NCBI GenBank assembly: GCA_016199065.1
Contig: JACQHK010000033.1
Coordinates: 1 to 41,485, forward strand
DNA: 41,485 nucleotides
Source of the DNA: Candidatus Microgenomates bacterium
GTDB lineage: Bacteria > Patescibacteriota > Microgenomatia > JACPZF01
Direction of reading: 5' to 3'
Part shown: positions 9,803 through 13,371 of the stretch, piece by piece
Numbering within the stretch: the first letter of the stretch is position 1
Layout of the letters: every line of letters starts with the position of its first letter
Position numbers and translations under genes: made by a program
Notes under the pieces: generated by a model
Told to the model about the DNA's origin: nothing
What the model saw: the letters and a program-made list of their open reading frames with translations, nothing else
Databases searched by the model: none

Positions 9803-10300
9803 ATGGAAAAAGAAAATAATCTAGCCGAAGAAACACAACCACAAGAGAGAATTTTAAAACCCATGGATGGTGACATGTCGCAAATTCATACCAAAATTGC
9901 GCCTTTAGTAATAATTCTGGCCATAGGTTTAGGTGTCTTAACCGGTTGGATTTTCGGCAGAAGCGGTTTGGCACTACCTACAACCGGTGGTGGAAACCCG
10001 AGCACTTCAGAAGTTTTACAGGGTGCGGGAAGCAAGAATGTTCAGGTAGTTGGTTCAAAAGATACAAAAACTTTTAAGGACTGTACCAAAGGAAAATTAA
10101 TTCGAAATGACGGAAAAATTACTACCGAAGGGTCACATATCTTACAAAGAGTAGGCGGGGAAAGCCAGAATGTTTATTTAACCTCTTCCATAGTTGATCT
10201 CGAACAATTTTTAAACAAAACCATTGAAGTTTGCGGTGAAACAAATGCAGCACAAAAGGCAGGTTGGCTATTGGACGTAGGACTCGTAAAGGTGGAGTAA
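9803..10300 (+). CDS. Hypothetical single-TM exported protein
   Basis: 165 aa; TM helix LVIILAIGLGVLTGWIFG and a small C-terminal domain. Confidence 0.65.
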   Translation: MEKENNLAEETQPQERILKPMDGDMSQIHTKIAPLVIILAIGLGVLTGWIFGRSGLALPTTGGGNPSTSEVLQGAGSKNVQVVGSKDTKTFKDCTKGKLIRNDGKITTEGSHILQRVGGESQNVYLTSSIVDLEQFLNKTIEVCGETNAAQKAGWLLDVGLVKVE

Positions 10301-10321: not shown

Positions 10322-11008
10322 ATGATCGAGCTTCATAATGTTACTAAAAAATTTGGTGCTAATACTCAAGCTCTTCTTGATATCAATTTAAAAATAAGCC
10401 AAGGGGATTTTGTTTTTATTGTTGGACCAACTGGCTCTGGAAAAACAACTCTTTTAAGGCTTCTGACCAGAGAAATTATTCCCTCCGTGGGTAAAGTAAC
10501 TATCGAAGGAGAAGATCTTGCTAAATTACAGGGTTATAAAGTGACACAACTAAGGCGCCAGATCGGAGTAATTTTTCAGGATTTTAAGCTACTTATTGAT
10601 CAAACGGTATTTGAAAATGTTGCTTTACCGCTGGAAATTTTAGGATTAAAGAATAAAGAAATTGTTCAGAGAGTAAATAATATACTCGAACTTGTTGGTT
10701 TGTCCAATCAAAGAAATCTTTTTCCAGCACAACTATCAGGTGGAGAAGTACAACGCACTACTATCGCCCGGGCCATTATTAATGATCCAAAGGTGATCTT
10801 AGGAGACGAACCAACCGGGAATTTGGATCCAGCGACCAGTTGGGAAATTATTAAGCTGTTAAAGGATATCCATAAAAAAAGAGGCGTGCCCTTAATTATT
10901 GCTACCCATAATATGGATATAGTTAATACCTTGGGAAAAAGAGTCGTGCGTATTGAAGGCGGGAAGATTATTAGCGATAAAGAAGTGGGAAAGTATGAGA
11001 AAAGTTGA
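10322..11008 (+). CDS. ftsE: Cell-division ABC transporter ATPase FtsE
   Basis: 228 aa; Walker A GPTGSGKTT, signature LSGGEVQRTTIARAI, DEPTGNLDP; directly followed by ftsX. Confidence 0.92.
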   Translation: MIELHNVTKKFGANTQALLDINLKISQGDFVFIVGPTGSGKTTLLRLLTREIIPSVGKVTIEGEDLAKLQGYKVTQLRRQIGVIFQDFKLLIDQTVFENVALPLEILGLKNKEIVQRVNNILELVGLSNQRNLFPAQLSGGEVQRTTIARAIINDPKVILGDEPTGNLDPATSWEIIKLLKDIHKKRGVPLIIATHNMDIVNTLGKRVVRIEGGKIISDKEVGKYEKS

Positions 11009-11079: not shown

Positions 11080-11949
11080 ATGGGAAGATTTAAAACTACC
11101 TGGAAACATTTAAGACGATCTCCATATCAAGCCATGGCGGCAATTTTTATCATGTTTTTTACTTTCTTTATGGCAAGCATCTTTATCATGCTGGCTTATG
11201 GATTTGACAGAACTCTTAACTATTTTGAAAGTAAACCGCAGGCGACGGTTTTTTTGAAAGATGACGCTAAAGAAAAAGATATTCTGTCTTTAAGAGATAA
11301 ACTTAACGAGACTGGTAAGATTTCTACCATAAAATACATTTCCAAAGAAGAAGCTTTAAAAATCTATAAGGAGCAGTTTAAAAGCGACCCTTTATTGTTG
11401 GAAATGGTTTCTTCGAGCATTTTACCTGCCAGTCTGGAAATTTCTACTAAAGACATCAAAGACCTCAACAGTGTTTCTGAAGTGGTGAGTAAAGAACCGT
11501 TGGTAGAAGAAGTAGTTTTACCCAAAGATATTATTAATGATCTAATCGTTTGGACCACTTCCATTCGTACGATCGGTATTGCTCTGGTGGGTTTCTTGGT
11601 CTTTGAATCAATTCTGGTAATTATGATCGTTATTGGCATGAAGATTGCTGTCAGACGCCAGGAAATAGAAATTTTGCGCTTAGTAGGTGCCACCAGCTGG
11701 TATATACGCTGGCCTTTTATTTTTGAAGGAATAATTTACGGTTTGGTGGGTGCTGTTTTGGCTTGGGGAGCATCTTATCTTCTGCTTATTTACGCCACGC
11801 CCTTTCTTTCAACTTTTCTGGCAGGAATTCCTCTCTTACCCGTATCGTACATTTTGATGCTCTATCTTTTAGGAGCTTTGTGTGCAGGTGGGGTCTTGGT
11901 CGGGTCGATTGGCAGTATGGTTTCGGTGTGGCGGTATTTAAAAAACTGA
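11080..11949 (+). CDS. ftsX: Cell-division permease FtsX
   Basis: 289 aa; 4 TM, FtsX ECD-like YFESKPQATVFLKDDAKEKDI, MKIAVRRQEIEILRLVGATSWYIRWPFIFEG. Confidence 0.92.
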   Translation: MGRFKTTWKHLRRSPYQAMAAIFIMFFTFFMASIFIMLAYGFDRTLNYFESKPQATVFLKDDAKEKDILSLRDKLNETGKISTIKYISKEEALKIYKEQFKSDPLLLEMVSSSILPASLEISTKDIKDLNSVSEVVSKEPLVEEVVLPKDIINDLIVWTTSIRTIGIALVGFLVFESILVIMIVIGMKIAVRRQEIEILRLVGATSWYIRWPFIFEGIIYGLVGAVLAWGASYLLLIYATPFLSTFLAGIPLLPVSYILMLYLLGALCAGGVLVGSIGSMVSVWRYLKN

Positions 11950-13169
11950 TGAAAAAATGTTTAATTGTCGTCATTCTTTTTATATTCTCCACGGTTTTAA
12001 TTCACCCCGGGGTGGTTTTTTCACAATCAAGTAGCTGTCCTATCGATGGTGAGTCAATCTGCAGTAAAATATCAGACCCCAGCAGCAAAGAAACCTGTTT
12101 TAGTAATTTGGTAACCGGCTGTAAAAGTCAGGTTGACAGCCTCTCTTCTCAAGTGACTTACTTAAACGGCCAAATAAGTTTAAATGAACTTAATATTAAT
12201 AAAACAGAATTAAGAATTGATGAATTGGAAACCGAGATTGCCTCTATTTCCGCCAAGATCGAGAGACTGGAAGGATCACTTTCTACGGTAATTAATGTTT
12301 TGATTTCCCGAATCGTGGCAACCTACAAAACCGGCCGGGGAGAAAATGTCTCATTGCTTCTTTCGTCTCATGGCTTTTCCGAATTCTTATCGCGGGCAAA
12401 ATACATTAAAGTGGCACAAGAACACGACAAGAAACTTTTGTTTCAAATGCAGGAAACAAAGAATAATTATATCGAACAAAAAGCCCAACGAGAAAAAAAG
12501 AAGAAGGAACAGGATGATTTAAAAGTTTATTTGGTAGGTCAAAAACAACAATTGGCAAACACGAAGAAACAGAAAGAAGTTTTAATTGAAACTACTAAAA
12601 ACAGCAAGACACGATACGAACAGTTACGCGACGAAGCCAGAAGAGAAGCCGAACAAGTCAGGAAAGCTGCGGCTTTTGCTGCTTCCTCTGGTGAGAAAAA
12701 GCCAGTTAAAAAAGGCGATCCGATTGGCCTGATGGGCAATACCGGTTTTTCTACAGGTGCCCATCTCCATTTGGGAGTTTATAATCTCAAGGAAGACGAA
12801 TTCGGTTCTTTTAATTTTAACGGAAGTACAGAGAACCCCTTTTCCTATCTGTCTTCTAAGAACGTTCGTTTTGAGGGAACATCCTGTGATGATGTAGGTT
12901 CTGATCAAAATAAAGACGTGGGAGGCGGGGGTTGGTCCTGGCCCATGAGTTCACCAACAATTTCTCAATGTTATGGTCACACCCCCTGGTCTTGGCGCTA
13001 TAGTATTGGTGTTCACAACGGAGTAGATATGTGGGATAACAACGATGTTGTAGTACGGGCTATTGAAGATGGGAATGCCTATTTCTATCGAGGAGGAAAG
13101 GCAAACGGTAACGGAGTTTTTATCTTCCACAACAACGGGAAAATGAGCCTCTACTGGCACTTGCAGTAA
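11949..13169 (+). CDS. EnvC/CwlO-like coiled-coil murein hydrolase with M23 (LytM) domain in permuted order
   Basis: Start ATG 11949 within ORF 11763-13169; signal peptide, long coiled coil, then VKKGDPIGLMGNTGFSTGAHLHLGVY followed by GVHNGVDM...GNGVFIFHNNGKMSLYWHLQ-stop. Confidence 0.85.
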   Translation: MKKCLIVVILFIFSTVLIHPGVVFSQSSSCPIDGESICSKISDPSSKETCFSNLVTGCKSQVDSLSSQVTYLNGQISLNELNINKTELRIDELETEIASISAKIERLEGSLSTVINVLISRIVATYKTGRGENVSLLLSSHGFSEFLSRAKYIKVAQEHDKKLLFQMQETKNNYIEQKAQREKKKKEQDDLKVYLVGQKQQLANTKKQKEVLIETTKNSKTRYEQLRDEARREAEQVRKAAAFAASSGEKKPVKKGDPIGLMGNTGFSTGAHLHLGVYNLKEDEFGSFNFNGSTENPFSYLSSKNVRFEGTSCDDVGSDQNKDVGGGGWSWPMSSPTISQCYGHTPWSWRYSIGVHNGVDMWDNNDVVVRAIEDGNAYFYRGGKANGNGVFIFHNNGKMSLYWHLQ

Positions 13170-13371
13170 CCTTCAAAACATAAAAGAAAAATGTCTGTTT
13201 GCTATTCCTGTCTGCAGCACGGTTATTTGATAGGTAAGGAGGAAAGACAGGGGCGGGTAGGCAAAAATGAAAAAAATTCTAGATTAAATAAACGATAAGT
13301 TTACAGTAATTCCCGCGCACTGGAGTGTGGGAGTAGCTGCTTAACTTCTTTGGAGTATTGACGAAACGTTC

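Follow-up and report, generated by a model that had tools for sequence, protein, structure and literature searches.

A naturally permuted M23/LytM domain in a predicted FtsEX effector of Patescibacteria

The window, which is the whole stretch of 41,485 nucleotides analysed here, carries a gene directly behind ftsE and ftsX whose product ends in an M23/LytM peptidase domain with its two halves in swapped order. This locus raises the question of whether the order is a natural circular permutation or a product of decay, and what such a permutation would mean for the coupling of a hydrolase to FtsEX. An earlier sequence-only reading had proposed a natural permutation, placed directly after the coiled coil, with all expected metal and catalytic residues (HNGVD, YWHL, and HLH) present. 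The features of the locus are given below.

10322..11008, + strand: ftsE, cell-division ABC ATPase (NCBIfam TIGR02673 FtsE, E 1.2e-80, above cut-off)
11080..11949, + strand: ftsX, permease-like division protein with an extracellular domain (PF18075 FtsX_ECD and PF02687 above cut-off; NF038347 E 6e-60, below cut-off)
11949..13169, + strand: permuted effector gene, 406 amino acids, whose ATG overlaps the ftsX stop (11947-11949)
11949..12023, + strand: probable signal peptide, residues 1-25, with a hydrophobic helix at 2-18 (sequence and model helix; the cleavage site is a guess)
12141..12689, + strand: coiled-coil hairpin and terminal helix (helices 65-128, 143-216, and 220-247; AlphaFold model; Foldseek neighbours EnvC, RipC, PcsB, and RipA; PF24568 CC_PcsB below cut-off)
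12696..12851, + strand: M23 C-half, placed first, residues 250-301, VKKGDPIGLMGNTG...HLH...NPFSYL (PF01551 profile 59-89; alignment)
12762..12770, + strand: HLH motif, H272 and H274 (both His invariant in 46 relatives)
12852..12926, + strand: new linker between the former C and N termini (length variable, 2-89 residues between half matches in 108 relatives)
12927..13166, + strand: M23 N-half, placed last, residues 327-406, WPM..ISQCYG...HNGVD...YWHLQ (PF01551 profile 2-56; hhalign)
13014..13028, + strand: HxxxD metal motif HNGVD, H356 and D360 (both invariant in 46 relatives)
13152..13166, + strand: YWHLQ, motif of the catalytic His (H404, conserved to at least 90% in the 46 relatives) and protein end (almost all relatives have their chain end at this point)

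The overlap of the effector ATG with the ftsX stop bears out the earlier placement of the gene downstream of ftsEX, and its product has a coiled coil of the FtsEX-effector type. A longer reading frame from TTG 11763 was considered over-extended, and ATG 11949 is preferred. The model and the fold neighbours indicate that the effector has both a predicted N-terminal export signal and a coiled-coil hairpin. PF24568 CC_PcsB stays below its cut-off in the effector of the window, and it is found at E<0.001 in 30 of the 46 relatives. The VKKGDPIG motif begins at nucleotide 12705, the chain stops one residue past YWHL, and the TAA stop lies at 13167-13169. Just 5' of ftsE, at 9803-10300, a 165-amino-acid protein is encoded that has a single hydrophobic stretch and is matched by no Pfam family; its position is conserved in a relative locus (L010, 1829-2323).

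The canonical M23 profile PF01551 matches the effector in two swapped stretches, with 52.5 bits against a curated cut-off of 28.7. Profile positions 59-89 fall on residues 249-279, whereas positions 2-56 are matched farther downstream, at nucleotides 13011-13175, and the profile is matched by all 46 relatives. The metal ligands that define the family, namely HxxxD and the second His of HxH, are present in the effector, as is the catalytic His of YxHL. When the canonical and permuted profiles were compared by hhalign in their natural order, two separate swapped blocks of 80 and 45 columns were obtained, whereas a single block of 118 columns (E 1.1e-42) resulted when the halves were restored to canonical order. 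The same rearrangement raised the median score of single sequences from 43 to 76 bits and the model coverage from 0.62 to 0.96. One continuous match after rearrangement, where there were two swapped matches before it, is how a circular permutation shows itself at the sequence level, and neither half is incomplete. The effector does not have the canonical motif order along its chain, and it is therefore a permuted M23 variant by homology and not a canonical member of PF01551.

In most canonical proteins, a connector of 10-13 amino acids separates the two halves. The permuted proteins have their chain opened at this connector, and the old ends are joined by 2-89 amino acids, with a median of 22 and many linkers of only 2-4. 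Among the loci examined, none had an ORF in which the N or C half was present more than once, as expected of a tandem-domain intermediate, so the route of origin is one that we infer. The conservation of the order in the class and beyond, the rearrangement test, the single predicted domain, the five intact active-site residues, which are invariant or nearly so in relatives, the place in the ftsEX operon, and the coil of the FtsEX-effector type support the effector domain as a natural circular permutation of M23/LytM, and the proposal of the earlier reading stands.

Half-domain models were derived from the first homologue set and iterated, which yielded 108 permuted and 30 canonical distinct proteins. 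A search with each half for homologues of the same order, which the earlier reading had suggested, thus led to 108 distinct proteins from many genera of Patescibacteria, the phylum of the window, and in 105 of them the chain ends no more than four residues past the second half. With the 158-amino-acid permuted domain as the query, a class-wide search gave matches in 259 of 374 genomes, and among the class matches listed, about a hundred genomes have a single match across both halves in permuted order. Each of the 50 loci inspected in the class was permuted, which is far beyond chance; the matches reach within two residues of the model end in 49 of them, and the exception is cut by a contig end. 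Permuted matches in further classes were found by a phylum-wide search. The permuted M23 form is common and old in Patescibacteria. Where enough upstream sequence was available, ftsX lies directly upstream of the permuted gene in 101 of 106 cases, and 85 of these 101 genes were retrieved via domain similarity and not via ftsX.

A scan of genome contigs with the single protein as the query gave one close relative only. One genome of the same family has the same ftsX-coil arrangement on a contig that terminates within the coil, and another has the same coil with a C39-like peptidase domain instead of M23. A plasmid sequence search gave one partial match in canonical order, a phage sequence search gave no match, and no relative was found in a scan of viral contigs.

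AlphaFold models were built on alignments of permuted relatives alone. The whole protein was modelled with 46 homologues at a pLDDT of 90.5, and the isolated domain, with 43 homologues, forms one compact domain (pLDDT 96.1, pTM 0.92). The best neighbours of the whole protein in a Foldseek search of the PDB are the FtsEX partners EnvC, RipC, and PcsB. An order-dependent Foldseek search of the PDB with the isolated domain returned no M23 structure and chance-level matches only; this fits a permuted topology without a solved example, yet it is negative evidence and no proof of the fold. Order-based annotation and order-dependent fold search split permuted domains in half or miss them. No earlier report of a permuted M23/LytM domain was found in the full-text literature, the coverage of which excludes most subscription papers. 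An FtsEX-coupled M23 hydrolase is known as a kind, whereas its permuted, phylum-deep form appears to be new.

EnvC (8tzl, 6tpi), the best fold neighbour of the whole effector protein, resembles it in its FtsEX partner, signal peptide, coiled-coil hairpin, and C-terminal LytM-type domain. In EnvC, however, the domain has canonical order and a degenerate zinc site and works via amidases, whereas the domain of the effector is permuted with its site intact. For EnvC, the ATP cycle of FtsE sets FtsX in motion; FtsX in turn works on the coil bound to it, and the head is released from autoinhibition (PMC7668044, PMC11627006). PcsB and RipC (4cgk, 8idc) share with the effector the type of coil, the place beside FtsEX, and a head that is itself the enzyme, but their heads are cysteine-type CHAP or NlpC/P60 domains and not M23. 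Canonical M23 enzymes (LytM, lysostaphin, MepM, and ShyA; PF01551) have both halves and all metal and catalytic motifs in common with the effector; in these enzymes a connector follows YxHL, whereas the effector chain ends there and its halves are swapped. Natural circular permutation is also described for NlpC/P60 enzymes (YaeF/G6R, LRAT-like), whose superfamily has wall hydrolases among its members (PMC6403190), but this is an unrelated papain-like fold.

These comparisons point to a secreted FtsEX-coupled peptidoglycan endopeptidase with a naturally permuted M23/LytM zinc domain and a coil that would dock on FtsX, an assignment that we hold with good confidence. The effector is most likely an active zinc endopeptidase switched by FtsEX, in which the last helix of the coil would be wired almost directly to the HLH half. 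In a group of ultrasmall bacteria not yet in culture, it is probably the hydrolase that cuts the wall at division. We infer that the effector binds zinc and FtsX, that it has endopeptidase activity, and that the permutation makes the coupling between the coil and the active site more direct. In the proposed mechanism, the product of the third gene of the ftsE-ftsX operon would be exported by its signal sequence, its coiled-coil hairpin would dock on the extracellular domains of FtsX, and ATP cycling by FtsE would move the coil. The permutation would have opened the chain within the connector that separates YxHL from VxxGxxIG, with a linker put between the old termini, so that the last helix of the coil continues, at near-constant spacing, into the strand that precedes the active-site HLH motif, with YxHL at the end of the chain. 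Motion of the coil may then reach the zinc site directly from its HLH side, as the short, nearly constant spacing and the helix 220-247, which stops two residues ahead of the first strand of the domain in the AlphaFold model, suggest. Between a conserved motif of the coil and the domain, permuted proteins have 28 amino acids (IQR 27-29) and canonical relatives 39 (39-47), and the p value of 4.5e-11 for this difference is only indicative because the sequences are related.

It is plausible, though less likely than not, that the permutation alters the coupling to FtsEX, which the sequence-only reading had also considered. A stronger version, in which mechanotransmission was adaptively rewired in a large part of Patescibacteria by fusing the FtsX-driven coil almost rigidly to the HLH strand, is put forward tentatively and is rather doubtful. 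If true, the zinc site would be set by coil movement itself, and neither the flexible linker nor the restraining arm found in canonical effectors would come between them. There is also a considerable chance, somewhat below even, that the permutation, though real, has no functional consequence; it would then be an early accident that became fixed in the phylum, and the effector would be regulated just as its canonical counterparts are. Canonical M23, CHAP, and C39-like heads occur on similar coils behind ftsX in relatives, which indicates that the switch tolerates many heads, and canonical and permuted copies occur side by side. Neutrality is less easily reconciled with the long retention of the permuted form on a side of the FtsX tree from which canonical M23 is absent, or with the near-constant coil-to-domain spacing seen in permuted proteins only, although it could account for both.

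A permuted, non-catalytic LytM-type amidase activator resembling EnvC of E. coli is improbable. The operon type and the coil are shared with EnvC, and three permuted proteins (L099, L100, and L101) have seemingly lost the first His of HxxxD (WPGGLD or WPGGID) and may be non-catalytic. EnvC, however, is without zinc ligands, all of which are kept in the effector of the window, and a strict motif scan found all three motifs in 93 of the 108 permuted proteins; among the remaining 15, several are truncated or are simply clipped by the half-model boundaries. A domain swap between two chains, in which each N-half is completed by the C-half of a second molecule, would be allowed by the linker of about 25 residues in this effector and by coiled coils that may pair. 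It is nevertheless very unlikely, as the 2-4-residue linkers of many relatives fit a simple joining of adjacent old termini, and the single-chain model is compact (pLDDT 96). Assembly error, frameshift, or gene decay, the first artefact to suspect in a draft genome, has no observation in its favour and a negligible probability, and it is ruled out by the same order and the same end in 108 distinct proteins from many genera. A second complete M23 domain at the locus had been named earlier as an observation that would overturn the permutation, and a six-frame search of the whole genome found no other M23 piece there. Elsewhere in the genome there is a single further M23, of canonical order, within a large ORF of a different contig.

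The history of the effector was followed through its neighbour ftsX in 110 loci, drawn from the phylum and from the family of the window. The CHAP and C39 heads were labelled by motif, with examples checked by Pfam. The downstream effector was a permuted M23 in 26 loci, permuted and canonical M23 in tandem in 2, canonical M23 in 16, CHAP in 12, and C39-like in 6; none was recognised in 41, and the contig ended in 7. One locus counted among those with none recognised (L122) is C39-like by eye. The catalytic head of the FtsEX effector has been swapped repeatedly in Patescibacteria. In the FtsX tree, one deep, well-supported side (30 rows) lacks canonical M23, its effectors being permuted M23 or C39-like, and the remaining few permuted cases are interspersed with canonical, CHAP, and effector-less lineages. 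In an M23 tree, computed on halves set in common order, three order changes suffice, versus about 24 in shuffles. A single permuted clade is not rejected on this tree (AU p 0.194), and its monophyly is not demonstrated either. In L091, L092, and L093, which belong to one family, ftsX is followed by a permuted copy and then a canonical copy, each with its own coil, and such neighbouring genes hint at a gene duplication around the permutation event. Heads of either order on one type of switch and coil, at times in adjacent genes, offer a ready comparison by which the route from FtsEX movement to the hydrolase active site becomes directly testable.

The 41 loci without a recognised downstream hydrolase (L151-L210) fall mostly in one branch of the FtsX tree, and any FtsEX partner of theirs would be encoded elsewhere. 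C39-like or CHAP heads at the same ftsX-linked coil position were observed in L007 (1495-2709), L111, L124, L125, L129, L133, and L157.

Permuted M23 may not necessarily be restricted to Patescibacteria, given permuted-looking virion proteins of cyanophages, and from their sequences an independent origin in phage virion proteins may be considered. The best viral fold matches of the permuted domain in Foldseek are S-TIM5 (probability 1.00) and P60 (0.89). The protein of cyanophage S-TIM5 (AEZ65701.1; L217:7129-10122) has GDIIG..HLHMEIR at 517-545, HTGVD at 591, and FLAHL near 637-641, with the C-half before the N-half. In gp33 of Synechococcus phage P60 (L215:7778-10780), STGPHLDV is followed by FGVDF and then by YAFVHG at the C terminus, a likeness that is weak by sequence.
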